Position numbers and translations under genes: made by a program. Below the pieces are notes generated by a model. The model ran no database searches. It had not been told where the DNA came from and was given only the letters and a program-made list of their open reading frames with translations. DNA of 64,000 nt from a bacterium (lineage in GTDB: Bacteria > JAJVIF01). Below are positions 1-40,015 of this stretch, piece by piece (positions within the stretch are counted from its first letter, which is position 1; each line of letters opens with the position of its first letter). The DNA lies in NCBI GenBank assembly GCA_022072165.1, contig JAJVIF010000003.1:186001-250000 (forward strand), read 5' to 3'.

Positions 1-2589
1 GGACGTGCGGACCTCCATATCAACAACGTGCGCCTCGTGTTTCTGGAAGATGGCGCGACGAGCTTCTACGGCGACCCCAACAATGCCGCAGTCGCCGGGA
101 ACATTGATCTCCTCGCCAATGCCAACGGGTACACGGCCCTCCCCGCCACCTTTGTCGCACCGCCATCGGGCGTCAGCGCGTCGCTCTTTCCCTTCAAAGT
201 TTTTGAGACCGGGGATCCCCTGGCGCAGCCGACCGGCAACTTCAGCGCCGTGACCGGCTGGACCGGCGTCCTCAATGACCCCACCGGCTACAACGTCTTC
301 AGGATGGGAGGCAGCGCTTCCACCGAAGCGCAGTTCCGCCTGTCCGGGTCCTCCCTGCTGCAGGGGCGCATCGCGCTCCTTGGAAACTACATCGTCTCGG
401 CGGCCAACAAGAATCAGCGTCCGACCCCTGACTACTACATGCCCGAAGGGGCGATGCCGGAAGCCTGGAAAGTCATGGTGACCCCACCGGCGACCTTCAC
501 TGCGGATCCGGTGGGACAGTTTGATGTGGTAACCGTCGAGGTGGCGGACTGGCAGCATGGTGGCGTGGTCGATGCCGGCTTCCCGGGCGCGGACCGCACC
601 GGCCTGAAAGCCAGTGGCGATGTTGCCTCGGTGCAGGTCAGCATTCCTGCCTTCAGCGCCAATGCCTTCGGCCCGGTCACCACGCCGACCAGCGGCTCTG
701 GCACCCTGGCCTCCCCGCTCTCTTATGAAGTTACGGTCTCGAAGCCGGACACCTACACCACGCCGGGCGACGTCCTGGGTCTTGTGAAAGTCACCGACAG
801 CCGCACCAACTACCTGGCTATCGACAAGACACTGAGCGCCGGGACGGGGCTGAGCCAGCTGGCGGAAGTCGCGACCTACCAGGTCTTCCGCTTCACCCTC
901 GATGCCCCCAACACGCCGCCCACCTGCGATGGCTATACGGTCAACGGGAATCTCCCCAGCCCCACACCGCTCGTCATCCCCTCCGGCTTCAATGCCAGCC
1001 TGTCGGTCGCGCTGGACTTTAGCTTTACCAACGACACCGATGGCACCATCACCGGTGTCGATGTTGACTGGAGCTATGACGGCAGCCTCTTCAATGTCGA
1101 GGCGACCCGCACAGATGCCGGGAGCCTGACCTCCCCCACCGGCTATACGGCCCCTGACACCATCGGCATTCGCTTCACCGATGACGATGGCGCGCAGACC
1201 ATCTGCACAGTGGCCATCGGCAATGTCTATACCCCCACGACCACCCTCAATCCGGCAACGATCTACCTATCGCAGTCGCAGACCACGAACAATGTCCCCA
1301 ACGGCAACGACATGAATCTCGGCCGCATTGAGAAGCAGTTTGACTCCTACGGCAACACGGTGTACGCCCTCCTGAAAGCCGACACCACCGCGACCACCGG
1401 CCTGGTCTACCTGGCCCGTTCCCTGGATGGTGGGACCACCTGGAACCTGGCGGACTCCGTCCAAATCGGATCGGGTCTGGCGGCCGGCACGGGCAACCGT
1501 TTCGCGACCGTGACCATGACGGTCAACGCGGATGGCAGCGCGATCTACATCGCCGGTATCGGTTCTCCGACCACCGGCTCGTCCGGCAACGTGGTCTTCA
1601 GCCGGGTCAACACGGCGAGCTGGACCCTGGATGCCAGCATCCGTGGTGTCCAGGTCGAAAACGCCACGACGGCCTTCGATCCGCTGTTTAACGGCTTCGA
1701 GACCGCCATCGCCGCGCACCCCACCAACCCGGAGATCGTTTACATCTGCTCAGATGACGAGACTCCGGCCCGCAAGCTGCGGGTGGTGCAGATCAGTAAC
1801 GCAAAGTCAGCGGCCTCCCCGGCGGGCCTGACGTTCAGCCGTGTCGGCGGTGGCGATGGAGTCGCCTATGCCACGGATGGCGCTCAGTACAATTCCATCT
1901 TCGACCCCCACCTCTTCATGGAGACCAACGGCACCGGCTCCCTCCACATCGTGGGGCAGGCAGGCGGCGGAACGGTCACGACGGGCGCGATCGCTTATCG
2001 CGAGTATGACCTCGCTTCCAATACCTTCGTTGGTGCTGGTGCGGTTCTGATGACCGACTTCACCGCCGTCGGGACACACAACAACCGGGAGCCCCGGGTG
2101 GCCGTCGGGACCGACGGACGTCCGGTGCTCGTGATCCGCAGCGACGGCGCATCCGGGCAGGACCGTGCCATGATCCGCAAGGCGGCCCTGAGCAACCCGC
2201 CGTACAACTTCAGCGCTGCCAAAACTGTGGATCCCGACTGGGATACCGCCACTACCGCGAATCAGGAGAAGCCGGAGATCGAGATTGATCCCGCCACTGG
2301 CCTCATCTACGTCACCACCACCGACACCCGCGACATCGGCAGCGGCGAGAGCAACTCGAGCAATCCCAGCTCCTGGGAAACCGTGTTCGATGCCGAGCTG
2401 AATGTCCTGATCGACGGCCGGAAGCTCGACTTCGCCGGCATCGGCGACAACGGCGATGGCGACCGTATCACCCGTCCGCTGCTGACGCTGAAAGGGAGCC
2501 CCACCACCAAGCGCTGGATTTACTTCTGGCAGGACGCCAGCCGGAAGAACACCGCGAATCCTGACATCAAAATCCGCATCGCCCAGTAG
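1..2589 (+). CDS. Giant surface lipoprotein paralog A, 5' truncated
   Basis: The reading frame is open from base 1, so the gene starts outside the window; 862 residues are visible. The first visible residues (GRADLHINNV) match residues of the next gene just after its HPF motif, so only the signal peptide and the CxxC-HPF domain are missing. Family landmarks follow: YYMPEGAMPEAW near residue 145, the VADWQ motif near 183, a PKD-like module with two cysteines starting PPTCDGY near 305, then a beta-propeller-like C-terminal half with an Asp-box (SLDGGTTW). It ends 192 bases before paralog B and has its own terminator. No enzymatic role can be assigned; ligand binding or adhesion at the cell surface is inferred from the domains. 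Confidence 0.85.
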   Translation, partial: GRADLHINNVRLVFLEDGATSFYGDPNNAAVAGNIDLLANANGYTALPATFVAPPSGVSASLFPFKVFETGDPLAQPTGNFSAVTGWTGVLNDPTGYNVFRMGGSASTEAQFRLSGSSLLQGRIALLGNYIVSAANKNQRPTPDYYMPEGAMPEAWKVMVTPPATFTADPVGQFDVVTVEVADWQHGGVVDAGFPGADRTGLKASGDVASVQVSIPAFSANAFGPVTTPTSGSGTLASPLSYEVTVSKPDTYTTPGDVLGLVKVTDSRTNYLAIDKTLSAGTGLSQLAEVATYQVFRFTLDAPNTPPTCDGYTVNGNLPSPTPLVIPSGFNASLSVALDFSFTNDTDGTITGVDVDWSYDGSLFNVEATRTDAGSLTSPTGYTAPDTIGIRFTDDDGAQTICTVAIGNVYTPTTTLNPATIYLSQSQTTNNVPNGNDMNLGRIEKQFDSYGNTVYALLKADTTATTGLVYLARSLDGGTTWNLADSVQIGSGLAAGTGNRFATVTMTVNADGSAIYIAGIGSPTTGSSGNVVFSRVNTASWTLDASIRGVQVENATTAFDPLFNGFETAIAAHPTNPEIVYICSDDETPARKLRVVQISNAKSAASPAGLTFSRVGGGDGVAYATDGAQYNSIFDPHLFMETNGTGSLHIVGQAGGGTVTTGAIAYREYDLASNTFVGAGAVLMTDFTAVGTHNNREPRVAVGTDGRPVLVIRSDGASGQDRAMIRKAALSNPPYNFSAAKTVDPDWDTATTANQEKPEIEIDPATGLIYVTTTDTRDIGSGESNSSNPSSWETVFDAELNVLIDGRKLDFAGIGDNGDGDRITRPLLTLKGSPTTKRWIYFWQDASRKNTANPDIKIRIAQ

Positions 2590-2613
2590 TCCTCCTGCTG
2601 GTCTGCTCTGTCT

Positions 2614-2781: not shown

Positions 2782-5700
2782 ATGTATCTGCTATCTGCCA
2801 GCCGGCGATGGGCTTTGCCGCTGCTGAGCCTGTCACTGTTGGGAGCGATCGCGGGCTGTTCCCGGGGGTCCGCCTCCCTCAGCTCCCCTGATACTGCCCG
2901 CCCTGCGGGTTCAGACCTGCCCCCGCTGATGTCTCTGATACACACCGACAACGACGTCCTGACCACCGGTCAGTCCCCGCTGGGGGTCTTCGACTTTGCC
3001 TACGATGCTGCGAGCAACAGTGCGAGTCTCACGCCGCTGCGGGCTGCCACCGCGATTGGCGTCGGCTCAAACATCGCCACTGATGTCACCGCCGCCCTGT
3101 CAACTGCGACCTTTGGATGCCCCAGTTGCTTTGCGATCACGTCTGTTGATCGCGAGGTGATTGATGGACAGAGTGTCCTGACCCTGGGATTGCGCGTACG
3201 CCATCCGTTCCAGGCCCCTTCGATACCCACCTCCCGGGCGGACCTGCACATCAACAATGTCCGGCTGGTGTTCCAAAGCCTCGGGACGCAGGAGTTCTTT
3301 GGGGATGCGCCGAACGACCCGCTGGTAACCGGCAACGTGATCCGCATCCGGAACGCTGATGGGTATGCCCTGCTCCCCACCACCTTTATCCCGCTGCCTG
3401 AGGGTGTCACGGGCAATCTGTTCCCCTTCAAAGTCTTCGAAACGGGGGACAATCAGTCGAATCCCTTCGGCAACTTCCAGCCAACCACCGGCTGGAGCAG
3501 CGTCCTGAGCACGCCGACCGGCTTCAATGTCCTGCCCATGGGGGGCGAAGCCACCACCGACCTGCAGATCAATCTGCCCGGCACCCAGACGCAGCAGATC
3601 AGTGGACGCATTGCACTCCTCGCGAACTTTGTGGTCTCCGCCGGGAATCGCAGTCAGCGCCCCACCCCCACGTATTACATGCCCGAAGGGGCGATGCTGG
3701 AAGCCTGGAGCGTGGAGGTGACCACCCCGGGTCCCTTCCTCGGCGGCGGTGAGGAAGTCGGCACCGTCTCTGTAGCAGTCGCGGACTGGCAGGCCACCGC
3801 GAGTCAGGACCCCCTTTTTCCGGATACCGCGAATCCCGGAGGCCTCCTGGCGGATTCCCTCCCGGCCAGTGTGCTGGTGGACATTCCAGGCTTCAACGCC
3901 AGCGGTCCGTTCGGTCCCGCCGGCGCGCCTGTCAGCGGTACCGGGACCCCGGTAGATCCGCTGGTCTATGAACTCAGCATCACCAAGCCCGCTGGGACCC
4001 CGGCCGGGACTTACCCGGTGCTGGTCAAGGTCCTGGATACCCGAAGCAATCAGGATGCCCTGAATGCCAGTCTGAGTGTCACGACCGGACTCTCTATGCT
4101 GGAGCAGATCGCGACCTACCAGACGGGCACCATCTCGGTCGGCGTCGGCGATGCCCCTCCAACTTGCGGCGGCTACAACCTGACACCGCCACCAGTGAGT
4201 GGAACCGTGAACGTGGCACCGTTTGTCAACGTGGTAGCCGCCTTCGATGGCACCAACGACGACAACGGCATAGCACTGGTCGAAATGGACTGGGACTATG
4301 ACGGGACTTTCGCCCTCTCTTCCGACCCCGCCTATCGCTCGACCGCTTCACTGAGCAACCTTAGCTACCAGTACGACACCCTTGGGCTCCGCACCGTCGC
4401 CATTCGGTTCACCGACACCATCGGTCAGACCAATAACCCGGTCTGCACGTTCCTCGTGAATGTCACCACCGCAAGCCTGCCACCGTACTGCGGCGGCTTC
4501 ACGATCAACGGGAATCTCCCCGGTCCCCAGACCCTCACTGGCGGCTGCCCGGTCACCCTCGCCTTTGACTGGACCAACGATCCGGACGGCAACATCAACT
4601 ACGTCGAAGTGGACTGGGATTATGACGGCACTTTCGCCAGTTCAGGCGACCCGGACTACTCCCAGCTCTTCGAGTCCTCGATTGTGGACTCCCTGACCCG
4701 GGTCCTCCTCTCCACCCGCACCATTGCCCTCCGGTGGACCGACCTGACCATGGAGAGCAATGATCCCGCCACCTGCCAGTACGTCATCACTGTGACCGGC
4801 GGAGTCTCCGGTCCGGCCGCGAGTCTGATCCCCAACTCCTATCTTGCGAACGCCGCCCGCATCCAGCCGGTGGATCATCGGACGCCGGTCGCGAGCCACG
4901 GTGACAACGTGTATGTGCTTATCCGCAAGTCCGGCACTCCGTTCAACTCGTACATCTTTCGCTCTGCGGACGGTGGGCAGACCTGGGGCCCCGGCACAGA
5001 AGTCGGGAATGCTGGAGTCGGCACGGGTACTGGCGGAGCTGGCAACTACACGACCCTCGCCCTGGCCGTCACCGCAAGTGGCAAGCTGCTGCTGTTCGGC
5101 GCTGAGTTTGGGGGACCCTTTGCTTACTGGATCAATCGCCTGGAGAACAGCGGGGTGAACGAAGTCGCCTTTGATCCGGCAGCGACAAACGTCCTGATGT
5201 TCAATGCGGCTGGGGGGACCGATACGTTCCCCTTCGCGACCGGGTTCCACGCCGACCCCTCGGTCCAGACCGACCCCACGGACGCCAGCATCGCGTATGT
5301 GGCGGCCACGGATGGCATCGCCGGGAACAACTCCCAGCGCGTCAGACTCGTGCGCGTCAACAACGCCAGCAGCGGCACGCTCAGCTTCAGCCTGCTGGGG
5401 GATGCCTTCAGCTCGCCGGGGCAGTCCAACTTCGAGCCGCTGATCCGGGTGGATGGTGAAGGCGATGTCCACTGCATCGTCAAAAACACCAATGTCCTGA
5501 AGTACAAGGAATACAAGAAGGGTGCGGGGAGTATCCCTGCCGATCAGACTCTGAGCACCATCATCGGCGTCCCCTTTAACCCCTACATGGCCATCGGCGG
5601 TGATCTGCTGCCGGTGGTCACCTACGACCTCTCGAGCGATGTCTACCTGCTCAAAGCCTCCAATGCCACCGCGCCTACTTTTGGTGCATCGACGCCGGTC

Positions 5701-6051
5701 CTGGCTTCCAGCTCCGTGGTCAGCACGCAGGTCCGCCCGTTCGTCGATGTCGACAAGACCAACAACAACATCTTCGTCTCTTACGGCGACAACCGCTACG
5801 GCGGGACGGAGTCGAGCACCCTGCGACTCGCCACGACCCTGAGCGTCTGGAACAGTGCCCTGACCTCGACCCTCGTCTGCGATCTGCAGGTGGATGGTCC
5901 AGGGACAGACGACAACAACAACAACTTCGGCGATTCCATCGTCCACATCACCCAGGACTTCAGCCCCTCCGCAAAGCGCTATCTGGTCTTTTGGCTGGAT
6001 GGTGATGCCGCAGCCAACACCGATCCGCTCTATTGCCGGGTCTATCAGTAA
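2782..6051 (+). CDS. Giant surface lipoprotein paralog B (CxxC-HPF domain, two PKD-like modules, Asp-box repeats)
   Basis: 1089 residues. ATG 2782 is chosen over GTG 2776 because AGGAG at 2768-2772 lies 9 bases from it. A lipoprotein signal ends in LLGAIAGC (Cys about residue 27). The family domain follows: CPSC near residue 112, HPF 24 residues after the second Cys, RADLHINN, then YYMPEGAMLEAW and VAVADWQ. Two PKD-like modules begin PPTCGGY and PPYCGGF and contain WDYDGTF strands. The C-terminal half carries an Asp-box (SADGGQTW) and looks like a sialidase-type beta-propeller. It is probably exported and lipid-anchored. Tandem arrangement and similarity to paralog A suggest duplication. Substrate unknown. 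Confidence 0.88.
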   Translation: MYLLSASRRWALPLLSLSLLGAIAGCSRGSASLSSPDTARPAGSDLPPLMSLIHTDNDVLTTGQSPLGVFDFAYDAASNSASLTPLRAATAIGVGSNIATDVTAALSTATFGCPSCFAITSVDREVIDGQSVLTLGLRVRHPFQAPSIPTSRADLHINNVRLVFQSLGTQEFFGDAPNDPLVTGNVIRIRNADGYALLPTTFIPLPEGVTGNLFPFKVFETGDNQSNPFGNFQPTTGWSSVLSTPTGFNVLPMGGEATTDLQINLPGTQTQQISGRIALLANFVVSAGNRSQRPTPTYYMPEGAMLEAWSVEVTTPGPFLGGGEEVGTVSVAVADWQATASQDPLFPDTANPGGLLADSLPASVLVDIPGFNASGPFGPAGAPVSGTGTPVDPLVYELSITKPAGTPAGTYPVLVKVLDTRSNQDALNASLSVTTGLSMLEQIATYQTGTISVGVGDAPPTCGGYNLTPPPVSGTVNVAPFVNVVAAFDGTNDDNGIALVEMDWDYDGTFALSSDPAYRSTASLSNLSYQYDTLGLRTVAIRFTDTIGQTNNPVCTFLVNVTTASLPPYCGGFTINGNLPGPQTLTGGCPVTLAFDWTNDPDGNINYVEVDWDYDGTFASSGDPDYSQLFESSIVDSLTRVLLSTRTIALRWTDLTMESNDPATCQYVITVTGGVSGPAASLIPNSYLANAARIQPVDHRTPVASHGDNVYVLIRKSGTPFNSYIFRSADGGQTWGPGTEVGNAGVGTGTGGAGNYTTLALAVTASGKLLLFGAEFGGPFAYWINRLENSGVNEVAFDPAATNVLMFNAAGGTDTFPFATGFHADPSVQTDPTDASIAYVAATDGIAGNNSQRVRLVRVNNASSGTLSFSLLGDAFSSPGQSNFEPLIRVDGEGDVHCIVKNTNVLKYKEYKKGAGSIPADQTLSTIIGVPFNPYMAIGGDLLPVVTYDLSSDVYLLKASNATAPTFGASTPVLASSSVVSTQVRPFVDVDKTNNNIFVSYGDNRYGGTESSTLRLATTLSVWNSALTSTLVCDLQVDGPGTDDNNNNFGDSIVHITQDFSPSAKRYLVFWLDGDAAANTDPLYCRVYQ

Positions 6052-6600: not shown

Positions 6601-6609
6601 CCCGCAGAC

Positions 6610-15463: not shown

Positions 15464-18262
15464 ATGCGTCGATGCACCCTACCGCTGGCTTTGCTGAGTC
15501 TGACACTCCTGGTGGCCTGCTCCGGCGGGTCCGGCACCACCCCCGCGACCCCTGCGTCACCAGAGCCCGTCGCCGAACCGGCCACCTCCGGGGGACCGAG
15601 TCCGCAGTTCATCCCGACGGCCATCACCGACCAGCATGTTGCGGGCTTCGGGACCTTCGGCACCATCGGGGGGACCCTGGACCTCACGGACCTCAGCCTG
15701 ACCCTGGATCCGCCTGCCCGCACCGCCCAGCTGGGGGAGACCTTCGACCTCGATATCACCGACTTCACCAATGAGAATCCCTGTGTCGACTGCATGCGGA
15801 TCGATGGGGTCCAGGTGAACGGGCAGGGGGAGATCGTGCTGGGGGTGTCGCTGCGCCATCCTTTCAAAACGCCGGGCTTCTTCTTTTCCCGCCCCGACCT
15901 CAATGTCTTCGACACCCGGGTGATTCTGGTGCTGGGGGGCACCGACAGCTCCAATCAGATTCTGACGATTCCTGACAACGCCACCGCCCCTACAACTACC
16001 AGCGGCAACTTCGGAGCCGTAGTGAATGCCGATGGCTTCACCAGTCACTTCGACAGCCGGGCGGAGGATCCCCGGTACTTCGATCCGCCCAAGAATCTGG
16101 CGGGCAACATCAACGCCTTCAAACGCTTCTTTGTGGACCCGGTAAAGACGGAACCGTTTGAGCCGACGGTCCCCTCGGGCTGGAATGTCATGCCTATCGC
16201 CAGTCCGATCCAGGTGCAGGAGTTCGTGATCGACCCCACGCGCCTGGGGAGCGGCACGACCGTCCCCTTTGTGCTGGTGGCGGAAGCGGCCTGGGGGGTC
16301 GCCCGCAACAAAGCGCTGCCGGATGACGATCCAGGCGGGCGATTCAATCCGAAATACTGGCTGCCGGAGTTCAATCAGCATGAGCCCTGGAAAGTGGATG
16401 TCGAGGTGCTCAACAACGGCCTCACCGCCCTGCAGGGAGCGTCTTCAGTCCAGCTGCGCGTGCAGGTCGCCGACTGGCAGGCTGGCGAGACGGTCGACCC
16501 CGGCTACCCCGACCTGGGGAATCTCCGCGGACTGGCCGTAGCCTCCGATGTCGCCCGGGTCCGGGTCGCCATTCCGGGGGTCAACAATGTCGGAGCCTCG
16601 CAGACCACACCCACGAGTGGGGCAGGCTCTTTCAGTGATCCCTACATTTACAACTTCACACTGCAAAACGCTGAAGGGGCCTCCACCGGCACGTACTACG
16701 CTCTGGTGGCGGCGGAAGACAACCTGAACGGCTCCGCCGCCGGACCCCAGCGGGTCCCGGAACTCGGCTTCCCCCGTGAGGGCGCGGAAATCCAGAACTA
16801 CATCGGTTATGCAGTCGCGCCGGTGACCGTCAAGGACATCAACTTCCCACCGCAGGTCCTGACCTCCTTCACACCGGAGGGAGGCATCATCGATGTCGGA
16901 CAGCAGGCCTGCTTTGAGGCGAAAGTCACTGACCTCAACGCCGAAGACACGCACCTCATCGAATGGGACTTTTCTTACGACGCCTCGGTCGGCTTCACGG
17001 CGGAGGCGACCGGCGCGAGCATCTGCCATACCTACACGGCACCGAGCATCAACGTGGTCGCGGTCCAGGTAACCGACAACGGGAATCCGCCGCAGTCAGT
17101 GTTCATCAACAATGTCGCTACGATCCGGGTCAACGGGATCGTCGGTCCGTTCCGGCTCTTTGATGCCGCCCGGTTCGACAAGACCCCGCCGGATGGCGGC
17201 CAGAGCGGGCTGGGTTTTGTCTCCACCGGTCCCCTGCTCCTCCTCTTTAGCGGACAGGATGTCGGGGAAGATATCTTCATCTCCCGGACCACCAACGGCC
17301 AGACCTGGAGCGCGCCGGCGAATCTCAGTGTCCAGGCCGCCGGCGACCAGAGGCGTCCGGACATGGCCATCGCCGGCCAGGCGGTCATGATCGCCTGGGA
17401 AGATGGCGCAGGAATCCGCGGTGCGCTCTCGACCAATGGCGGGCAGAACTTCCAGGCGGGCTTCCAGATTGCAGCCAACGGGACGCTGCCGAGTGTGGCC
17501 GCCACCCAGCCGACCATTTTCTATGTCTCGTACTCCAACGGTGGCGATGTGTTCATCAAGGCCAACGCCATGGGGAATCTGGGGGACTTCACGGGCGCGG
17601 CGACCATCGTGAACGATGTCACCGATGGCCTCCAGACACGACCGGACATGGTGGCGGACCCCGACCAGGATCGGGTCTATCTCGCCTGGGAAGACAACCG
17701 CGATCCGGCGTTCGGCATTGACATCTATGGGGCCACCGCCACGAGTCGGGGGACCACCATCTCGGTGAATCGCGCCCTCTCCGATGACCGGGGGAGCGCG
17801 GATGACACCGAGCCCGCGATGGCTGTGGCCCAGAACGGTGACTGGGTCGGCGTGGTCTACCGCAGCAAGCGGTATCGCACGACCGGCGACATCCTCTTCA
17901 CCAAGAGCATCAATCAGGGCACAACGTACCAGCCGGCGGTGGTCCTGACCGCCGGGCCGGTGGCGACTTACTCCTCCCCCACGATCTCGGCCCGGAACGA
18001 CCTGACCGCCGTGATGGTGGCCTACAGTCGCCTGACCGGCACCAGCGACTATACGGTCCGCTACCACATCTCCTCAGATGGTGGCTCGTTCTTCAAGGCT
18101 CCCATCGATTCCGGCGCGATTGCATTTGCGGACCCCAGCCCCACAGTCGCGCTGCAGCCCAACGCGGGACAGAACATCTCCCTCGCCTGGACCGATCAGC
18201 GCAACGCTGGCACCCAGGACTTCGGGCAGATCTTCTTCATGCTTGGGTACGAGTTTAAGTAG
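15464..18262 (+). CDS. Giant surface lipoprotein paralog C
   Basis: 932 residues. ATG 15464 is chosen because it directly precedes a lipoprotein signal (MRRCTLPLALLS...LLVAC); GAGG lies 11 bases upstream. Family landmarks: CVDC near residue 107, HPF 21 residues after the second Cys, RPDLNVFD, EFNQHEPW and VADWQ. One PKD-like module begins FPPQVLTSF and contains EWDFSYDAS. The C-terminal half has weak Asp-box copies (SRTTNGQTW, STNGGQNF, SINQGTTY) and propeller-like strands such as VYLAWEDNRD. Compared with A and B it lacks the CGGY-type module. Surface ligand binding is inferred; no catalytic residues recognised. Confidence 0.88.
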   Translation: MRRCTLPLALLSLTLLVACSGGSGTTPATPASPEPVAEPATSGGPSPQFIPTAITDQHVAGFGTFGTIGGTLDLTDLSLTLDPPARTAQLGETFDLDITDFTNENPCVDCMRIDGVQVNGQGEIVLGVSLRHPFKTPGFFFSRPDLNVFDTRVILVLGGTDSSNQILTIPDNATAPTTTSGNFGAVVNADGFTSHFDSRAEDPRYFDPPKNLAGNINAFKRFFVDPVKTEPFEPTVPSGWNVMPIASPIQVQEFVIDPTRLGSGTTVPFVLVAEAAWGVARNKALPDDDPGGRFNPKYWLPEFNQHEPWKVDVEVLNNGLTALQGASSVQLRVQVADWQAGETVDPGYPDLGNLRGLAVASDVARVRVAIPGVNNVGASQTTPTSGAGSFSDPYIYNFTLQNAEGASTGTYYALVAAEDNLNGSAAGPQRVPELGFPREGAEIQNYIGYAVAPVTVKDINFPPQVLTSFTPEGGIIDVGQQACFEAKVTDLNAEDTHLIEWDFSYDASVGFTAEATGASICHTYTAPSINVVAVQVTDNGNPPQSVFINNVATIRVNGIVGPFRLFDAARFDKTPPDGGQSGLGFVSTGPLLLLFSGQDVGEDIFISRTTNGQTWSAPANLSVQAAGDQRRPDMAIAGQAVMIAWEDGAGIRGALSTNGGQNFQAGFQIAANGTLPSVAATQPTIFYVSYSNGGDVFIKANAMGNLGDFTGAATIVNDVTDGLQTRPDMVADPDQDRVYLAWEDNRDPAFGIDIYGATATSRGTTISVNRALSDDRGSADDTEPAMAVAQNGDWVGVVYRSKRYRTTGDILFTKSINQGTTYQPAVVLTAGPVATYSSPTISARNDLTAVMVAYSRLTGTSDYTVRYHISSDGGSFFKAPIDSGAIAFADPSPTVALQPNAGQNISLAWTDQRNAGTQDFGQIFFMLGYEFK

Positions 18263-29503: not shown

Positions 29504-32500
29504 TTACTGCAGCGTGCCCCGGGAGGCGAAGAGCTCATTCGTCCCGCCATCGGTGTCCCCACCCCAGAAGAGCGTGACAGCGTTCGCACCGCTCAACGGA
29601 GTGCTGCGGTCCGTGACGATCCAGGGGAACTTGTCGCTGACGATGTTGTACGGGTCGAAGTGATTCGCTGCATGGTCGCTGGCGATGACCGTGAGGCTGC
29701 TGTTCAGCACGACCCCGTAGATTTCCGGGTTCGCCGTGCTGAAGCCGAACGTATCTTCCCGGGTGTCTTCCCAGACCACCCAGATGTTGCCGCTGCCATC
29801 GACACAGAGGCTGGGGTGCACCTGGTCGCGCTCCGCCGCTGCCCGCCCGATGCGCGTGTTGTCGGTATTGACCTTCAGCGCTGAGGTGAATGATGGGATC
29901 CCCGCGCTGTCACCCCGGACCAGGAAGATGTCGTTGGAGCCGTCGCGGTCATCGCTCCAGGCGATGAGGGGGCGGTCCGAGGTATCGACCCAGAGGGCCG
30001 GGTCGGTGCCACCACTGGTGCCCGTACTGCCGGGCAGCGTCTGGTTGCCATAGGCGCTGCCGGTCCCCGCCGGATTGAACTGGGCATAGCCCACGACATC
30101 CGGCCCAGGCCTGACATCGCTCCAGGTGACATGCACATCGCCGCTGCTGTCATAGGCCATGTCCAGGGTGTTGCGGGAGGTCGCGCCACCGACGAGGGGG
30201 AAGAGGACGCCGGTGAGCTGGGTCCAGGTGCTGGTCCCGCCATTACCGGCATCAGCGGAGCGCCAGAAGTCCAGCTGCCCGCTGTTGTTGGCGATGACCC
30301 CCACCACAACATTGTTGACAGTGGACGGATGGACGGCGATGTCGACCTGTCGGCCATTGGGATAAGCCCCCAGAGCGATGATCCGTCGGTTGGCTCCGGA
30401 AGTTGGATTCCACATGTTTGTGCCGCTGGATGTGTTGGCCTTGCGGAAGGCGAGGTTGCCGCTCAAGTCCATGTAGACAGCGTAGGGGAGCAGTCCATCG
30501 GCCGCGTCGATAGCGGCACTCCGCGTGTTGTTCTGTGCGGCGGTATCGACATTGGCCCGATCCACCCAGGTGCTGCCACCTGTGGTGGAGCGGACCGTGT
30601 TCAGGAAGTAATTTGAGCCCGCGTTATTGGAGGCGTAGCCGATGGCGAATGCGTTGTTCCCGTTGCGGGACAACGCGGTGCCGATCACGCTCTTCTGGAT
30701 GCTCCAGTTCGCCCGGAGCCCATCCACTTCCGCATACGACTGTGCCGCCCAGGGGGTGATCATCACTTCCCGGCGGAGATAGCCAAACGCGCCGACGTTG
30801 TCCGTGACCCGCAGGGCCACATAGGTGGACCCGTAGGTGTTGTACGTCCGGGGGGTCGGGTTCTGGATCATCTGGTCGCTGGTGAAACCGACACCGAAGT
30901 CGCTGCTGTTGACGTTGATGTTTTCGTAGTCCCAGTCCCAGGCGACAACGGTCCCATCGGTGTCAAAGCTCGTGCTGCCATCAAAGTCCAGCGACTGGGT
31001 CCGGTTGATGTAGAGCGGCACTGACGTAGTCAGATTGGGGTAGGGTACCCCCGCGCTCCAGATGCCGGATCCCGTCGGGACGGACACTGCCCGGGTAATT
31101 TCCGCCACCGGACGCGCATTGGGTCCCACCGTAAAGGTGACACTGCTGATGCAGAAGCCGCCATCGGTATCGGTCACCCGCATGGCGATCGTGCGGTTCA
31201 CCGGGGTCGAGAGGGGATTGATGAAGTCGTAGACGATGCTGTTCTGCCCGTTGTACAGCGGGTTGGGATCAAACGTGACCCCGTCGTAGTCATCATCCCA
31301 GGCGAAGACCAGCGCGGCGAACGGGTCCTCCACATCGGTGGCGGTGGCTCCGGTCAGTCCCTTGTTGCCCCCGGAGGGGACATTGGTTCCGGCGGGAATG
31401 ACACTTAAGGGGCAGGTCGGCACGTTGTTGGGAGCGACGGTGAAGTCGAGGGTTACCGGACCACAGGTCGCGGCCTCGGTGTCGGTGACCCGCAGGGCGA
31501 TCTGCCGGTTTACAGGCCCGGCGGTGGTGTTGTTCAGCGTAGTGGAGGCGATCGCTCCCGTGGCATCGACCGTGAAGGTCATGCCGTCGTAGTCAAAGTC
31601 CCACTCGAAGGTCAGAGAGCCCTGGGGATCGTTGTCATCGGTGGTTGCCGTGGCATCGAGCAGCACGTTGGTCCGGTGCGGCACACTCCCACCGTTGGGG
31701 GTCCCCACAAGGGAGCAGTTCGGCGGCAGGTTGCCCGGCGCGACCGGCAGGTGCACCACCTGATAAGTCGAGTAGTCGCTGATGGTGAACTGGGTGACAC
31801 CATCGCGTCGCACGCCACCGTTCACCGGCGGGGCATCCCGCAGTTCATCCCGGACCGCAATGAAGCCCAGGTAATCGCCAGCGGGAGCCAGCAGGGTGTT
31901 GCTGACGGCGAAGCTGTAAATCAGCGGGTTCGCGATGGACCCATCGCCGCTGAGCGCCGTTGTCTGGGTCTGCACGCCGTTGATCAGGTCCGGCGCGATC
32001 AGCGCGACACTCGCGACCCGGGACGACTGCCGCAGGCTGTCGAGGGGGGCGGTCTCGAAAGGATAGCCCGGCGTCACCGTGCCGAGGCTCTGCTGCCAGT
32101 CGTTGACCGCGACTTCGACGGTCGCAAACGACGAAGCGTTATTGCTGATGAGGGTGTTGGCGGTGATGTTCGGTAGCACCCGCCAGGCTTCCTTGCGGTT
32201 GTACTCCGGCAGGAAGTACCGGGGGGAGCGGCGGTTCCCCGGCTGCCCCACGGGGATGTTGCCGCGCGCGGAGACACCGTACTTGGCATCGAGGGCCAGC
32301 ACCACACCCACCTGCTCCGCGCCATCGAAGTCCAGGACCATCGTCCCGGTGGCGGTCTGCCCCATGCCGAAGACGTTGTAGCCCTGGGGATTCTGGAGAT
32401 TCGTAAATCCGCTGACCGTCGCCGGGTTGAACTGTCCCGCCACCGGCGCTTCGACTTTCATCAGGATGTACGGATAGACCGTCGCTTCCGAGCCGGTGAT

Positions 32501-33178
32501 GTTGTCGATCACCCGCGTGAGATGCGAGGCGTAGCCATCGGCGTTCGTGAGGAACCCGGGCTTTTTGATCTTGAGATTCGAGGTCACGCCGCCGGCGAGG
32601 CGGGTCTCGATCTGGGGGATCGTCACGAAGTCCGACGGGCCAGCCAGTCCGGGGATCGCCAGCTGGAGCTGCATGTCGAAGACATGCAGGTCGAGGCGTC
32701 CGGACCCAGGCGGCGGGACCGCGAAGGGATGCCGGGTTTCGACTTTGACTTCGACATTGCCATCGCCATTGAGCGAGAGGCCCGTCACCTGCAGACAATC
32801 AGCGCAGGGGGAATTGCGGAAGAAGTCGGTGACATCGACCTCGAAATCTTCCCCCAGCTGCCCGGAGCGGACCAGTGGCTCCAGGGAGGCCTGGAGACTG
32901 GTAGCGTCCATCCGGAGGCCCCAGAGCCCGAAGAGCCCGACTCCGGAATCGACCGCGGATGGATCAATGCCGACAGGCAGCGGACCGGCATGCTGCGGAA
33001 AGACAATGGGCGCTTCTGGCACCGCGGCCGATGCCGATGGCGCAATGGTTTCGTTAGTGGGAGTTGGGGCGGGGGTGGAGTCGCCGGTGGGCGTCATGGG
33101 CGATCGTCCACCTCCGGAGCAGCCGATTAGTAGCCCCAGGGCGGCAAACAGGGCCACCGAGCCGAACGGGGTGCGCAT
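29504..33178 (-). CDS. Giant surface lipoprotein paralog D, largest member
   Basis: 1224 residues. ATG 33178 has AGGAGG at 10 bases and opens a lipoprotein signal ending LGLLIGC. The family domain holds CADC near residue 126, HPF 21 residues after the second Cys, RLDLHVFD, EYNRKEAW and VNDWQQ. Three PKD-like modules follow, starting PPNCSLVG, VPTCPLSV and RPVAEITR, each with an EWDFDYDG-type strand; this is one or two more than its paralogs. The C-terminal part is propeller-like (WRSADAGNGGTSTW, VTWSDVRPGPDVV, IAWSDDRDGSND). It is divergent from the kinase/ATPase gene. Probably on the cell surface; substrate unknown. Confidence 0.88.
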   Translation of the reverse strand: MRTPFGSVALFAALGLLIGCSGGGRSPMTPTGDSTPAPTPTNETIAPSASAAVPEAPIVFPQHAGPLPVGIDPSAVDSGVGLFGLWGLRMDATSLQASLEPLVRSGQLGEDFEVDVTDFFRNSPCADCLQVTGLSLNGDGNVEVKVETRHPFAVPPPGSGRLDLHVFDMQLQLAIPGLAGPSDFVTIPQIETRLAGGVTSNLKIKKPGFLTNADGYASHLTRVIDNITGSEATVYPYILMKVEAPVAGQFNPATVSGFTNLQNPQGYNVFGMGQTATGTMVLDFDGAEQVGVVLALDAKYGVSARGNIPVGQPGNRRSPRYFLPEYNRKEAWRVLPNITANTLISNNASSFATVEVAVNDWQQSLGTVTPGYPFETAPLDSLRQSSRVASVALIAPDLINGVQTQTTALSGDGSIANPLIYSFAVSNTLLAPAGDYLGFIAVRDELRDAPPVNGGVRRDGVTQFTISDYSTYQVVHLPVAPGNLPPNCSLVGTPNGGSVPHRTNVLLDATATTDDNDPQGSLTFEWDFDYDGMTFTVDATGAIASTTLNNTTAGPVNRQIALRVTDTEAATCGPVTLDFTVAPNNVPTCPLSVIPAGTNVPSGGNKGLTGATATDVEDPFAALVFAWDDDYDGVTFDPNPLYNGQNSIVYDFINPLSTPVNRTIAMRVTDTDGGFCISSVTFTVGPNARPVAEITRAVSVPTGSGIWSAGVPYPNLTTSVPLYINRTQSLDFDGSTSFDTDGTVVAWDWDYENINVNSSDFGVGFTSDQMIQNPTPRTYNTYGSTYVALRVTDNVGAFGYLRREVMITPWAAQSYAEVDGLRANWSIQKSVIGTALSRNGNNAFAIGYASNNAGSNYFLNTVRSTTGGSTWVDRANVDTAAQNNTRSAAIDAADGLLPYAVYMDLSGNLAFRKANTSSGTNMWNPTSGANRRIIALGAYPNGRQVDIAVHPSTVNNVVVGVIANNSGQLDFWRSADAGNGGTSTWTQLTGVLFPLVGGATSRNTLDMAYDSSGDVHVTWSDVRPGPDVVGYAQFNPAGTGSAYGNQTLPGSTGTSGGTDPALWVDTSDRPLIAWSDDRDGSNDIFLVRGDSAGIPSFTSALKVNTDNTRIGRAAAERDQVHPSLCVDGSGNIWVVWEDTREDTFGFSTANPEIYGVVLNSSLTVIASDHAANHFDPYNIVSDKFPWIVTDRSTPLSGANAVTLFWGGDTDGGTNELFASRGTLQ

Positions 33179-33470: not shown

Positions 33471-36400
33471 ATGTCCTTCGCCGCACAGCCACCCGATGCG
33501 ATCACGCCGCTGACCGGCCTCCCGGTCGAGCCGCCGCCTGCCCCGGATGCAGCGATGCGCTCCGGCGCGGCTCGACTGGCGGAACTGACCGCCGAAGCCG
33601 CCGCGACACCGAGCCTGGTGGGTCTCACCATCAAGCAGCGCTACACCCTCTGGGAGTGCATCGGAGCAGGACTCCAGGCGCAGGCCTATCTCGCATATGA
33701 CAACCTCCTGGAGGGGAAGGTTGTTGTCAAAGTCCTCTCGACGGAAATCGAAGGCATTCCCCTCCCCCTCCCCGACAGCTGGGAAGAAGAAGCCAAGAAG
33801 GCGATGCGGGTCCGCAATTGCCCTTACATCGCTTCGGTCACCGACCTCGGCCAGGAAACCCTGACCCTCCCCGATGGTTCGGTGCGCGAAGTGGCGTTCA
33901 TCGTCTGGGAATACGTCCGGGGCACCACCCTCGATGAATATGCCGAGACGGCCACGGACCTCACCCTGGAGTTTTTGCTGGACCTCGCCCAGCAGCTGAC
34001 CCAGGTCCTGCGAGTCCTCCATGCCAGCGACCTGGTGCATGGCGATCTGCACAGCAAGAACGTGATGCTGGACCGCGATCCGGCGGGACGTCCGGCGATT
34101 AAAGTCATCGACTTCGGCCTGTCGCATCAGGGGACCGATGGCAAGGGCCTCTTCCGCGACCTGCGGAGCGTGCACCGCATCCTGCATCACCTGATGGAAC
34201 AGCGTCGCGCCAGTCTGGGATCCGCGCGACTGAGCGAGCGGGATCAGGAATTCAGTGCCATCGTGGCGCAGTTCGGCATCGAGCCCTCCGGCGACCATGC
34301 CGAACATCTGGTCTTTTTGGAATCCGCCCTGCATCAGCTGGCACGACGTCACCTCGCGATGCAGCCGGCGATCAGCACGTTTGAGACGCTGGATGACCTC
34401 TTTCCCTGGAGCCAGACAGTCCTGGCCCAAACCTACTCATTTCGGGCGGTTCCGTGTGTCGGACGACAGGAGCTGATCCAGCGGGTGCTCGGGACACTGA
34501 GTAATGCGCTGCAGGAGGGACACGGCACGATCCTGCTCCTCCGGGGGGAGAGCGGAGTCGGGAAAAAGCGCCTCGCCTGGGAAGCGCTTCATGAGTTCTG
34601 TCTGGCGCATCACGAGGTCTTCCTGCTGACCGCCCGGGGCCACCGGGGGTCCGGGGTCACTCCCTTCAGTGCCGTCCGCCAGATGCTGCGCAGCTTCCTG
34701 GGTGAGCACCGTCAGGAGGACTATCCCCGGCTGCTGAGTCTGCTGTTGCCGGACAGTCAGCCGCTGATTGCTCCGCTTATCGATTTTCTGCTGGAGGAGC
34801 AACCGGGGGCAGGGGGTGCGACTGGTCTCGGCTCGACGGCCTTCGAACACCTCATTGCGCGGATCCTGGCCAAGATTTCACTGCAGCGACCCCTCATCCT
34901 CTGGGTGAGCGATGTGCAGTACCTCGATGACCCGAGTCGTCAGTGCCTCCTGCAGATCGCCCGGGACACCACCCGCTTCCCGCTGATCCTCGTGGGGACC
35001 TATGGCGCAGGCGACCTCGATGCCGGCGGCAGCGTGGTGCTGCTGGAGGAATGGCTCACCGCCATGCGGGGGCTCGGCTGCCTGGAGTTGCCGGTCAAAG
35101 TGCTGCCCCGACCCCAGGTCGCGCAGTTCATTGCGGCGGCCCTCCCCTGGCCCGGACTCGCTCCGGAGCACGCCCTCGTCGATGCCCTCTGGATGCACTC
35201 GGGCGGGAATCCTTACCTGCTGCAGGAATCCCTGTCGTATCTGATGCAGGCGGGGATTCTGGAGTCCACCGAGGACCGGGGCTGGCTGGTGGATACGGTT
35301 GCGCTGCAGGACCTGGGGACCTCCAGCATCCAGCTGTTGCTGGAACGACGCCTGCAGCAGCTCGATCCCTTCCAGCGCGAAGTCCTCGACCTCGCTGCCT
35401 GCTGGGGCTCCGACTTCCCCGAAAGCGATGTCACGCTGCTCTTCCGGGAGCGCGCTGTCGAAGCCACGGCCGCGCTCTACACCGCCCAGGAGCAGGGACT
35501 GCTGGTCGCCCAGCGGCCCGGGACGCTTTCTTTCCAGCCGTACGCCCTTTGGGAGATCATCGTCCAGCAGCTGACACCGGAGCAGCGCCGACGCAACCAC
35601 CTGCGGGTGGCTGCTCAGCTCCAGGCCCGGGAAGAAAGCCACCTGTCGCATGAGGCAGCCCTCACGATCGCCCGGCACTGGGAGATTGCCGGCGATGCCC
35701 AGCGTGCTCTGGAGTACTGCCAGATTGCCGCCGATCGCGCCCTCCTGGTTCGGGCCAATGAAGCGGCCCTCGATGCCTGTCAGATGGCGCTCCATCTCAT
35801 TGGGCAGAACAGCCTTCCCTCCCTGGAGGGGTCGCGCCTCACCGCGCTGACCCACCTGCAGCAGGCGAAGGCGTACCGCTACCTCGGCGACCAGGCCGCC
35901 CAGGAAGAGTACGCCGTCAAAGCCTTCGAAGGGGCGGTCATTGCCCGGGATGCGCAACTGGAGCTGCGGGCACTCAAAGCGATGGGGGAGTACTACCGGA
36001 GCATCGCCGACTACGAGAGTTCGACGGACTACTTCCGGCAGGGTCTCGACATCGCGGCCGAACTCAACGACCGGGGACGTCGGGCCCGCTTTCACAAGGA
36101 GATGGGGGTCAACTTCTATCTCCTGGGCGACATGGAAGCCGCTGAAGCGGAGTACCAGCAGGCGATCAGTATCAATCTGGAGCTGGGGGATGCCGAGGGT
36201 CTCGCCCGGGTCTACAACAATCTCGGCATGATCTGTCGCAATCGGGGGGAATGGACCGCCGCGAAAGACTGGTTTGAGAAGGCCATCGCGCATTTCCAGG
36301 AGGCCGGCGAGTCCCGGGGCCTGGTCCTGCCGATGGGGAACATGGCAATCATCTACACCGAAGAGGGTGAATATGAGAAAGCGATGATCCTGCTGAAGGA

Positions 36401-37130
36401 GCTACTGAAGAACGAGGTGCAGCTGGGCGAAGCGCGCCTGCGGGCCAAGATTCGCGTGACGCTGGGGGATGTCCAGGCGGAAATCGGCGAGGATGCCGAG
36501 GCGCTGGAAAACTACGAGCACTCGTTGCAGGTCTATCAGGCGCTGGGCGATCGCCAGGGCGAATGCGAAGTCCTCACCAACATCGCCGCGATGTACTTCG
36601 AGCAGGGAAAGCTCGATCTCGCCGAGCAGTACCACCGCCTCGGCCTCGATCTCAAGCGGGAGATCGGCTACGAGTGGGGGGTCCCTCTCGATCACTACGA
36701 TCTCGCCCGGGTCCACCTCTCCCGCCGGGAAACACAGAAGGCGCTCCAGTCGATTGATCAGGGTCTGGAGATCGCGCAGCGACTCCGTATGCACGAACTG
36801 GAGTTCTCACTGCATGTGCTGCAGGTCGCCGCGCTTGAACTGGAAGAAGCGACCCCGGCACGGGATCTGGCGCGGCGCTATGAGCATCTGCTGGAGCTCT
36901 ATCCCGATGTGAAGCGGGGGATCACCAAGCAGCGGCAACTGATGTTCCTGGTGCAGGTGGGGACCTTCTTCAGAAATCAGCATTCACCGGCAGGGGAGCA
37001 GCTGCTGGAGGAAGCCCGGAGCCTGCTGCGACAGCTGGCGCGACGCTTGATACGTCCGGAGCGGAAGGCACGCTTCTGGGAAAAGTACCGTCGGCTCTTC
37101 CCGCATCTGGAGCTCTCCGCCCGGGTGTAG
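33471..37130 (+). CDS. Ser/Thr kinase - AAA ATPase - TPR signalling protein (STAND-like)
   Basis: 1219 residues. Residues about 57-330 are a protein kinase-like domain: glycine loop IGAGLQAQAY, lysine in VVVKVL, catalytic HGDLHSKN near 190 and DFGLS near 213. A second unit has Walker A GESGVGKK near 358 and a Walker B-like LILWVSDVQYLDD near 483, as in the AAA_16/STAND ATPases of PknK and fungal-type tripartite regulators. About 700-1200 is a TPR array (YNNLGMICRNRGEWTAAKDWF). No membrane helix seen, so cytoplasmic. There is no ribosome site at ATG 33471. Such proteins sense a ligand through the TPRs and signal by phosphorylation. No partner regulator is adjacent; two giant lipoproteins flank it. 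Confidence 0.88.
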   Translation: MSFAAQPPDAITPLTGLPVEPPPAPDAAMRSGAARLAELTAEAAATPSLVGLTIKQRYTLWECIGAGLQAQAYLAYDNLLEGKVVVKVLSTEIEGIPLPLPDSWEEEAKKAMRVRNCPYIASVTDLGQETLTLPDGSVREVAFIVWEYVRGTTLDEYAETATDLTLEFLLDLAQQLTQVLRVLHASDLVHGDLHSKNVMLDRDPAGRPAIKVIDFGLSHQGTDGKGLFRDLRSVHRILHHLMEQRRASLGSARLSERDQEFSAIVAQFGIEPSGDHAEHLVFLESALHQLARRHLAMQPAISTFETLDDLFPWSQTVLAQTYSFRAVPCVGRQELIQRVLGTLSNALQEGHGTILLLRGESGVGKKRLAWEALHEFCLAHHEVFLLTARGHRGSGVTPFSAVRQMLRSFLGEHRQEDYPRLLSLLLPDSQPLIAPLIDFLLEEQPGAGGATGLGSTAFEHLIARILAKISLQRPLILWVSDVQYLDDPSRQCLLQIARDTTRFPLILVGTYGAGDLDAGGSVVLLEEWLTAMRGLGCLELPVKVLPRPQVAQFIAAALPWPGLAPEHALVDALWMHSGGNPYLLQESLSYLMQAGILESTEDRGWLVDTVALQDLGTSSIQLLLERRLQQLDPFQREVLDLAACWGSDFPESDVTLLFRERAVEATAALYTAQEQGLLVAQRPGTLSFQPYALWEIIVQQLTPEQRRRNHLRVAAQLQAREESHLSHEAALTIARHWEIAGDAQRALEYCQIAADRALLVRANEAALDACQMALHLIGQNSLPSLEGSRLTALTHLQQAKAYRYLGDQAAQEEYAVKAFEGAVIARDAQLELRALKAMGEYYRSIADYESSTDYFRQGLDIAAELNDRGRRARFHKEMGVNFYLLGDMEAAEAEYQQAISINLELGDAEGLARVYNNLGMICRNRGEWTAAKDWFEKAIAHFQEAGESRGLVLPMGNMAIIYTEEGEYEKAMILLKELLKNEVQLGEARLRAKIRVTLGDVQAEIGEDAEALENYEHSLQVYQALGDRQGECEVLTNIAAMYFEQGKLDLAEQYHRLGLDLKREIGYEWGVPLDHYDLARVHLSRRETQKALQSIDQGLEIAQRLRMHELEFSLHVLQVAALELEEATPARDLARRYEHLLELYPDVKRGITKQRQLMFLVQVGTFFRNQHSPAGEQLLEEARSLLRQLARRLIRPERKARFWEKYRRLFPHLELSARV

Positions 37131-37170: not shown

Positions 37171-37198
37171 AGATACTGCTGTTGATGACCGGGCTGGG

Positions 37199-40015
37199 TT
37201 AGAAGCGTCGGAAGTTGATCGCCCCACCATCGGCACTGGTCTGGTAGAGTGCGCCGAAGTCCTGGGTGCCCGGGAAGGGCACCACATAAGCGCGTGGGAA
37301 ACCGACCGGACCAATCGCCTCTTCCGGACTGAACGTCGCGCCATTGTCGCAGGATGTCCGTCCTCGTAGCGTATTGGAAGCCCCGCCGCTTGCGGTCCAG
37401 TAGAGCATCAGCTCACCGGTGGGGTAGTAGCGGACGCCGGGGTACTGGACATAGGCACTCCCTGAATCCAGGTTGGTCTGGAAGGTCGTAGTTTGTCCGC
37501 CAGTCGTGCTGGTGAAGAGGCAGACCCCAATGCTGCTGTTGTTGTTAAAACGCGCGGCATAGGCCAGCGTCATGCCCGTCGCATCGGTGGGATCCGCCAT
37601 ACCTCGGCCATAGGCAAAGACTGTCGAAATCCCGATACCAGTGTTGTGGAAGTAATGATTGACTGGGCTCCAACTCGCGCCGTTGTCATCACTCCGTCGG
37701 ATCCAGAGGGCCCCATCGGAGCCGGTGCCAAAGCGGACCGAGCAGTGATAGACCTTGTTGTTGGGCGCAAAGAAGAGACTGGCACCAAAGCCGCCATCAC
37801 ACAGACCCGGCAGCATCGGTCCAGCCCCCAGGGCCAGCGCGCCGCTGCTGGTCTGCACAGTTTTAAAATTGCAGGTGCCGGTGCTGTAGCTCAGGATGAC
37901 ATGCGCGGGATTGTTGGGATCAACGGCCCCGGTGAGGGAGTACTTCTGGCCAACAGAATCTACAAAGCGCTCCACCCAGGGATCCTGGCCGTAGTTGCCA
38001 CTGGTCCAGACTGAGAGCCGGGTATTGCCAAAATCAGGACGTGGCTGCTGTCCCATGGCATACACCGTTCCATCCGGACTGGCGACCACGTACATGTCCC
38101 CCCAGGGGTTGACACTCGGTGTATCCGGTGGACTGTAGGACTGATCAATGACCGCACCCGCAGTCCAGGTGGCCCCGCCATCGGCAGAGACATACAGCCG
38201 ATGGGCATAGTCAGACTCAGATGGCGTCGCGTTGTCGTAGACCAGGGCATAGGCATGGTTGCCGGCTATTGCCATCCGGTAGTCACCGGAGAAGTTGCCG
38301 TTGTTCAGGGACTGCTGAGAAAATGCATTCGCGCTGAGCACACTGACTTCTGGTTCCGGCAGAAACGAAGTGATAGTGACTGGCACCACCGCAATGCTCG
38401 AGAGTCCACCAGGATCGGTAACCCGGACCGCGGCGGCATACGAACCCACCGGACAATACTGGAAGCTCCCTGTCGATACGCCGGAGGCTGGGGTATCCGG
38501 AACAAAGTTCCCTGGATCTCCACCCGGCAAATCGTAGTCAAACTCGAAAGTCAGATTAGCCGGGGTTTCCGCATCGGTGCTGGCGCTGGCATCAAAGAGG
38601 ACAGGCTTGCCGATCGCCCCAATAGCAGGATTGGGATTCAGGGCAGCGGTGGGAGGCGTATTCGGGACTGAGGTGTCTTCCACTTCAACCATGACCAGCG
38701 TCCCAGTATGGAAATCAGTCGGCTGGAAGAACGAAATCTCCCGATTGAGGCCGGAGGTCGGAGTTGGCTGACGCTGGTCCACCGCTTCTACCCATGCCCA
38801 GTAGGTCCCCGCACCAGTGCTGAGCTGATTCGTGATGAGCGTGGTCCAGACCGCATCGTCATAGAGACCCGTCCCACTCTGGGGAGTGGCTGGATCGAGG
38901 TTCAGCGGTGTCGCAAGGAGGCCCGGTACCCGGACAGTCAGTGATGCCACATCACTGGCAGCCGCGGTCTGATCCGGAGGTGTCTCCGCGAAGGCGAAGC
39001 CGTTCGCCACCACTGCACCCCGCTGCCAGTCACGCAGCCGGATTTCCAAAGTGGCGTTAGAAGACGGGTCGCCAGCTTCGAGGTTGTTATTGCTGAGTGT
39101 CGCCGTGACCGTCCAGGGCGCCTTGTGATGAAACTCCGGGAGGTAGTAGATCGGCTGCTGGCGCTGACCGATGTTGGAACCACGCCCCTGCGCACCCTGT
39201 CCCCAGGCGAGACCAATGGCGAGCCCCACCCGCAGTTCAGTCTGTCCGGGCTGGAGGTCGAACTTGAACTCGACTTCATCCCGCTCGCCCATCGCCATGG
39301 TGTTGTGACCCTGGGGGTTGCGGAGGTCGGCAAAGCCGTTCTGATTGCTGCCGGCAAAATTCCCGGGGCCGTCATCGCGAAAGAAGACGCGGTACGGATG
39401 CTCGGTCACATTGGGAGTCGGGTAATACGGCTCCAGGACGCTGTCGTAGAGATTGGTGTATCCCTCAGCATTTACCAGGACTTCCCGGGCGGCCGTCCGC
39501 CCGCTGCCAAAGCTCACAGGGCTGCCGAAGCCCTCGGTGAGGATGAAACCCATCACATCGAACGCGTGGAGGTCCAGACGACTGGCGAGGGTATAGGGCT
39601 GTGTCGGCAGCGCAAAGGGATGCGTCATGGCGATCCGGACGAGCACATTGCCATCCGGTGCAAAACTGATACCCGTGACTTCCAGGCAATCCTTACAAGG
39701 GGAGTTCGTGAAGAATCCGGTCCCATCGAGCTGGTAAGCGTCGCCCTTGGCCTCCGCGGTCCGAAGCGGTTCCAGCGACGCCTGCAGATTGCCGTTTTGT
39801 GGTGCCGTGATGGTGAGGGTATGCAGCCACCCGGCTTCGTTGTAGACCTCCATCCCGCCCGCGTCGCCGGTCAGGGCGATCATGGAGCCGGGAATGACAG
39901 GAGGTGGGGTGGCGGTGCCCGCCGAACCCGCGGGTGACAGCGGAGTACGGCTGCCTCCCTGGCAGGCGGTCGCCAGGAGGGCCAGAGCAAGCGTGGAGAG
40001 GAGATACCGGGACAT
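37199..40015 (-). CDS. Giant surface lipoprotein paralog E
   Basis: 938 residues. ATG 40015 has GGGAG upstream and a lipoprotein signal MSRYLLSTLALALLATAC. Family domain: CKDC near residue 110, HPF 21 residues after the second Cys, RLDLHAFD, EFHHKAPW, LRDWQRG. One PKD-like module starts PPTAALNP and lacks the Cys of A and B. The propeller half has the clearest Asp-boxes of the five (SADGGATW, SDDNGASW), plus STTGGQTT. It ends convergent with the kinase/ATPase gene. Ligand unknown; surface exposure inferred from the signal and domain types. Confidence 0.88.
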   Translation of the reverse strand: MSRYLLSTLALALLATACQGGSRTPLSPAGSAGTATPPPVIPGSMIALTGDAGGMEVYNEAGWLHTLTITAPQNGNLQASLEPLRTAEAKGDAYQLDGTGFFTNSPCKDCLEVTGISFAPDGNVLVRIAMTHPFALPTQPYTLASRLDLHAFDVMGFILTEGFGSPVSFGSGRTAAREVLVNAEGYTNLYDSVLEPYYPTPNVTEHPYRVFFRDDGPGNFAGSNQNGFADLRNPQGHNTMAMGERDEVEFKFDLQPGQTELRVGLAIGLAWGQGAQGRGSNIGQRQQPIYYLPEFHHKAPWTVTATLSNNNLEAGDPSSNATLEIRLRDWQRGAVVANGFAFAETPPDQTAAASDVASLTVRVPGLLATPLNLDPATPQSGTGLYDDAVWTTLITNQLSTGAGTYWAWVEAVDQRQPTPTSGLNREISFFQPTDFHTGTLVMVEVEDTSVPNTPPTAALNPNPAIGAIGKPVLFDASASTDAETPANLTFEFDYDLPGGDPGNFVPDTPASGVSTGSFQYCPVGSYAAAVRVTDPGGLSSIAVVPVTITSFLPEPEVSVLSANAFSQQSLNNGNFSGDYRMAIAGNHAYALVYDNATPSESDYAHRLYVSADGGATWTAGAVIDQSYSPPDTPSVNPWGDMYVVASPDGTVYAMGQQPRPDFGNTRLSVWTSGNYGQDPWVERFVDSVGQKYSLTGAVDPNNPAHVILSYSTGTCNFKTVQTSSGALALGAGPMLPGLCDGGFGASLFFAPNNKVYHCSVRFGTGSDGALWIRRSDDNGASWSPVNHYFHNTGIGISTVFAYGRGMADPTDATGMTLAYAARFNNNSSIGVCLFTSTTGGQTTTFQTNLDSGSAYVQYPGVRYYPTGELMLYWTASGGASNTLRGRTSCDNGATFSPEEAIGPVGFPRAYVVPFPGTQDFGALYQTSADGGAINFRRF

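Follow-up and report, generated by a model that had tools for sequence, protein, structure and literature searches.

A large, apparently class-restricted lipoprotein family with an undescribed N-terminal domain and variable C-terminal parts

Five paralogous lipoprotein genes

The window, i.e., the whole stretch of 64,000 nucleotides analyzed here, contains five genes for large lipoproteins, in each of which an N-terminal part (head) and a C-terminal part (tail) can be delimited:

Gene 1, 3' part: 1-2589, plus strand; 5' end outside the window, whole ORF L001:13557-16589 encoding a lipoprotein of 1010 aa
Head of gene 1, in-window part: 1-906, plus strand; delimited by alignment
Tail of gene 1: 907-2586, plus strand; Asp-box-like repeat at 1420-1443
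Gene 2: 2782-6051, plus strand; lipoprotein of 1089 aa, lipobox at 2848-2862
Head of gene 2: 2962-4146, plus strand; CPSC at 3118-3129, HPF at 3202-3210, RADLH at 3235-3249, DWQ at 3784-3792
Tail of gene 2: 4147-6048, plus strand; PKD-like, with an Asp-box-like repeat at 4963-4986
Gene 3: 15464-18262, plus strand; lipoprotein of 932 aa, lipobox at 15509-15523
Head of gene 3: 15632-16840, plus strand; CVDC at 15782-15793, HPF at 15857-15865
Tail of gene 3: 16841-18259, plus strand; PKD_4-like, with three Asp-box-like repeats
Gene 4: 29504-33178, minus strand; 1224 aa, ATG at 33178 (frame open to 33226), lipobox at 33116-33130
Head of gene 4: 31736-32956, minus strand; CADC at 32795-32806, HPF at 32723-32731; AF2 model of low confidence
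Tail of gene 4: 29507-31735, minus strand; PKD-like modules and an Asp-box-like repeat
Gene 5: 37199-40015, minus strand; 938 aa, ATG at 40015 (frame open to 40102), lipobox at 39959-39973
Head of gene 5: 38675-39871, minus strand; CKDC at 39686-39697, HPF at 39614-39622
Tail of gene 5: 37202-38674, minus strand; BNR/Asp-box-like propeller

The ORF of gene 1 starts at L001:13557, 444 nt before window position 1, and has its own lipobox and a CASC motif. A first-pass annotation of the window had recognized the five genes as relatives and proposed a search with the N-terminal 250 residues. BLASTP comparison established that they are paralogs and that the homology extends further, across the entire head of approximately 400 aa (27-43% identity, E-values of 1e-21 to 1e-110). 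The shared elements are the lipobox, a CxxC motif (CASC, CPSC, CVDC, CADC and CKDC, respectively), HPF, RxDL[HN], DWQ and the Asp-box-like repeats. The distance from CxxC to HPF, given earlier as exactly 21 or 24 residues, is indeed 21 in three genes, but 23 or 24 in the others. The described Asp-box repeats are present in Asp-box-like form, but in the five window proteins all PKD and BNR matches stay under the Pfam cut-off, and significant matches to PKD_4 and PKD were obtained only in the genome-wide analysis described below.

Three neighboring features deserve mention. Divergently from gene 4, at 33471-37130 on the plus strand, lies an ORF encoding a fusion of a Ser/Thr protein kinase, an AAA ATPase and TPR repeats, which has a regulatory look. 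Just beyond the window two adjoining genes (L002:14426-17590 and L002:17714-19000, minus strand) encode large zinc-metallopeptidase-like proteins with HEVGHTLGLRHNYKAS motifs. A lipoprotein of 309 aa (L002:2111-3040, minus strand) recalls the head by its NADGF and DWQ motifs but does not match the head profile.

Sequence signature and predicted fold of the head

The head follows the lipoprotein signal and comprises approximately 330-400 aa. Searches of Pfam and NCBIfam gave no family-level match, and the PDB sequences yielded nothing beyond chance. Together with the lack of a whole-length fold match this bears out the earlier statement that the N-terminal domain lies outside known families; the head is undescribed and new to the libraries searched (Pfam, NCBIfam, PDB). 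As a new domain family it would give a name to several hundred proteins which are now without annotation. Weak matches of heads in Pfam and PDB to APOBEC-like proteins, PARP2, protein A, the collagen-binding protein Cnm and CBM49 were judged to be due to chance or unproven.

Which residues characterize the family was assessed in the alignment of the 137 heads recovered from this genome (see below). The His of HP(F) is conserved in all 134 heads that are aligned at this position. Over all 137 heads, conservation reaches 96-98% for the R, D and L of RxDL and 98% for the later Asp, that of DWQ. In contrast, CxxC is complete in only 42 of 137 heads; elsewhere the loop is mostly shortened and H-P is kept. 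Of the proposed CxxC-HPF signature the HPF part thus holds in other members and the CxxC part does not: the family signature is H-P together with R-x-D-L. In a relative genus, 57 of 62 sampled heads contain CxxC, a sample which was picked by similarity and is hence biased. The CxxC heads of this genome are clustered, yet a FastTree tree, in which many branches are weak, requires nine changes to explain their distribution. In 32 of the 42 heads the pair represents the only two Cys residues, so that both either pair with each other or jointly bind something. This, and the proximity of CxxC and His in the sequence, would suit a thiol-redox or metal-binding domain centered on CxxC...HP. Since about two thirds of the heads lack CxxC and H-P is kept independently of it, we regard such a function of the domain as highly improbable.

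The structure prediction, which had also been proposed earlier, differed in quality between a relative's head and a window head. An AlphaFold model of a relative's head, based on an alignment of 67 rows, was confident (pLDDT 93.0, pTM 0.87) and all-beta, whereas the AF2 model of a window head (gene 4) was poor (pLDDT 61.5). The fold is carried over to the window heads by homology, at 19-27% identity; the modelled head is a distant homolog which shares approximately 20-25% of its residues with those of the window. From the strand order and the best fold neighbors the head probably consists of two Ig-like sandwiches. These neighbors are RbmA and the beta domains of transglutaminase and sulfite oxidase, none of which gives a good alignment along the full length (top TM approximately 0.2); a fold search against viral models found nothing. 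The top match of the relative's head is RbmA, a biofilm scaffold of Vibrio cholerae with tandem FnIII domains (E 5.5e-4, TM 0.22, 11% identity), and these values are no evidence of homology. A neighbor of this kind, and one constant module adjoining the membrane anchor in about 137 proteins, could be expected if the heads self-assembled into an S-layer-like lipoprotein coat, a lattice decorated by the tails. As the fold match is too weak to imply homology, a coat appears unlikely.

The all-beta fold would also be compatible with a glycan-binding head. In such a polysaccharide-capture array, analogous to SusD/CBM systems, the tails would add further binding or hydrolysis, and tails with GH43, F5/8C and BNR domains do occur. 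At E<=0.1, seven of 67 heads displayed a weak similarity to CBM49 (Pfam), with a best E-value of 2e-4; the first member scored 13.7 bits against a cut-off of 23.4. However, it spans approximately 20 residues and is confined to the second half of the head, and most tails are without a carbohydrate family. To our knowledge, the H-P, R-x-D-L and D-W-Q motifs match no known CBM signature. Polysaccharide capture is therefore an improbable role for the family, though slightly less so than the coat. The adhesion or carbohydrate binding suggested in the first-pass annotation may apply to individual tails and is ruled out as a function of the family as a whole.

Copy number, distribution and tails

A profile built from the five window heads gave 113 matches in the genome to which the window belongs, and a broader profile of 44 members gave 137. 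The latter number is a lower bound. The earlier assumption of an expanded family is hereby confirmed: at least 137 member ORFs were recovered, whose open frames total 391 kb or 12.0% of 3,260,764 bases, with a median length of 962 aa. The argument used at the time, five copies in 64 kb, is nevertheless unremarkable, given a genome mean of approximately 2.7 per 64 kb. Members are solitary in 52 cases, and the remainder form groups of two to nine.

Relatives of the same class carry the family to a similar extent, with at least 133, at least 139 and, in a genome which is 82% complete, 111 head matches. Outside the class the head was absent from 381 genomes in a profile search in which five candidates were scored per genome, and no viral contig searched contained it. 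A pattern scan of the named genomes of GTDB r220 seeded with the window heads gave no match; seeded with heads of a relative, it returned matches in only two MAGs, LacPavin_0920_SED3_MAG_49_9 and CSMAG_1386. The latter (DAOVJF01) is labelled Planctomycetota but has the family in common with the former, a lake-sediment MAG; the label may be wrong and was not trusted. Among the genomes sampled the family thus appears class-restricted and lineage-specific, and no description of it was found in the open-access literature. Spending 12% of a 3.26 Mb genome on one undescribed family almost amounts to a hallmark of a bacterial group about which little is known.

The tails are far more diverse than the heads. 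Among 87 tails scanned against Pfam (E<=1e-3), PKD_4 was found in 28 and PKD in 20, and SBBP, BNR_2, FG-GAP, Reprolysin, M57, MauG, cytochrome c, GH43 and F5/8C in smaller numbers. The motif HExxHxx[GN]xxH is present in five tails and CxxCH in four. Since the tails include propellers as well as haem proteins and peptidase-like ones, no single function can be assigned to them, and the head is the common part. Many tails are built from the same ordinary modules as PKD, BNR/Asp-box, SBBP and FG-GAP repeat proteins, but the head belongs to none of these families. The scale of the family (12% of the genome, class-wide), its enzymatic tails and the recombination between heads and tails described below had been missed in the first-pass annotation.

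A lipobox-like site was identified in 130 of 137 members. The residue at position +2, scored in 124, was S, Q, A, N, G, T or R and never D. In Escherichia coli, a +2 residue other than Asp directs lipoproteins to the outer membrane. The window also encodes Omp85 and LpxD-like proteins, which makes a diderm envelope likely. Assuming that the +2 rule is valid here, both observations support a predicted sorting of the members to the outer membrane. A search for the surface-lipoprotein exporter SlipAM gave no match in this genome, but none in any control genome either.

Only few of the 137 members are interrupted by stops and almost all are intact ORFs. SD-like sites precede 107 of the 124 members with a scorable start, and a terminator-like hairpin lies within 83 nt of the stop codon in 68 of 124 members, where 0.8 would be expected from shuffled sequences. 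Long simple-sequence tracts occur in two of 137 members. On account of the intact ORFs, the SD-like sites and the terminators, most members look like separate, expressible genes, and there is no obvious library of silent cassettes. A repeat of approximately 30 nt which flanks recombined genes was considered as a recombination site and rejected, as it represents the GC-rich terminator hairpin.

Head-tail recombination and possible role of the family

Comparison of tandem pairs of members revealed that in several of them head and tail have different histories. In the pair C1:1016325/1022273, 2280 bp are 99.9% identical at the DNA level, followed by a sharp drop to no detectable similarity; dS is 0.00 for the head and 0.69 for the tail overall, the first approximately 200 tail codons lying within the identical tract. 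In the pair C1:1694601/1698503 the heads differ by a dS of 0.006, and the tails are 27% identical with a dS of 1.8 and a BLAST E-value of 0.29, which is not significant. Such near-zero head dS next to high tail dS indicates recombination, as one duplication plus selection is insufficient to explain it. Either head conversion or tail replacement may be the mechanism. In principle, tandem near-identical heads could have been distorted by assembly.

The same pattern is found across the genome. In 45 of the 141 pairs with heads at least 55% identical no tail similarity is detectable, and in the rest the median tail identity is 33%. In 52 of 113 genes, head and tail have their best partner in one and the same member, whereas in 61 the two partners differ. 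In the relative genus, heads 85% identical sit on unrelated tails, and tails 67% identical are found under heads 53% identical. Two pairs with comparable dS in head and tail (1.2-1.7) display a dN of 0.12 and 0.26 in the heads versus 0.73 and 0.83 in the tails; folding alone could account for this purifying selection on the head. One very recent whole-member tandem duplication was observed (C1:1622303-1625245 and C1:1627718-1630525, L056), with head and tail protein 100% and DNA 99.3% identical.

Known families offer partial parallels. PE and PPE proteins have helical N-termini and are substrates of type VII secretion, whereas the head described here is predicted to be all-beta, stands behind a lipoprotein signal and has no detected sequence relation to them; no Pfam match to a PE or PPE domain was obtained in 44 heads of this genome or in the 67-head alignment. 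The T9SS C-terminal domain, dockerin and PEP-CTERM are each one module common to dozens of otherwise unrelated proteins, and resemble the head in this respect, but the head is N-terminal, approximately 400 aa long and located directly behind the lipid anchor. With the PE/PPE proteins, which occupy approximately 10% of the Mycobacterium tuberculosis genome (PMC12209268) and for which gene conversion was reported (PMC2758852, PMC1762029), the family shares a conserved N-terminal module with a variable C-terminal part, a large genome share, possible gene conversion and restriction to a lineage. It thus rivals PE/PPE in genome share, by a different domain and, presumably, a different export route. 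The VlhA haemagglutinins of avian mycoplasmas, with up to 70 copies (PMC4534519), are likewise a large multigene family of lipoproteins. In contrast to these, the present family is both scattered and clustered, with many members having their own terminators, with enzymatic-looking tails and almost no simple-sequence tracts, in an apparently diderm host; its heads match no haemagglutinin (VlhA) model in Pfam or NCBIfam, and its tails match PKD and propeller models. Layout and genome share resemble those of PE/PPE and VlhA without homology, the domain itself being new to the libraries searched.

These parallels in copy number and genome share, and the fast divergence of tails recombined against near-identical heads, raise the question of antigenic or phage-receptor variation, in which surface proteins would be varied by gene conversion to evade recognition, with a purpose like that of VlhA or PPE. 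Against this stand the almost complete set of intact ORFs with their SD-like sites and terminators, the scarcity of simple-sequence tracts and the enzymatic look of some tails, and the title of one relative's MAG indicates lake sediment and no host. We consider evasion of this kind unlikely, to about the same degree as polysaccharide capture.

The interpretation which we favor, by a little over even chances, is that of a class-restricted mega-family of lipoproteins with a head-stalk-tail layout, in which the head would lie close to the membrane and act as a platform that displays or docks interchangeable effectors of the outer surface. The layout leads from the lipobox via the conserved, predicted all-beta head and often PKD modules to the variable tail. 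The outer membrane would be the destination of the proteins, which would be exposed on the cell exterior, and the head may be kept constant because all members dock to a common partner or to each other. The interchangeable effectors would then comprise propellers with a binding role, peptidases, redox proteins and a glycosidase, and new ones may arise by tandem duplication, fast divergence of the tail and subsequent head-tail exchange or head conversion. More tentatively, the head may be an undescribed generic surface-docking module of this candidate class with a dedicated partner, serving more than 100 interchangeable effectors per genome, so that new surface proteins arise by tail exchange under a constant head; the chances of this narrower version are somewhat below even. 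With its recombined heads and tails, the family makes it possible to test by what means a bacterium lacking an obvious host varies its surface.

A few members consist of little more than the head. Three adjoining short ones of 461-555 aa (C1:156544-161877, L035) are nearly head only and are a possible clue to a role of the head alone. In the relative genus (G001), about a dozen ORFs of 401-428 aa match just the first approximately 230 positions of the head profile and perhaps form a head-only subfamily.
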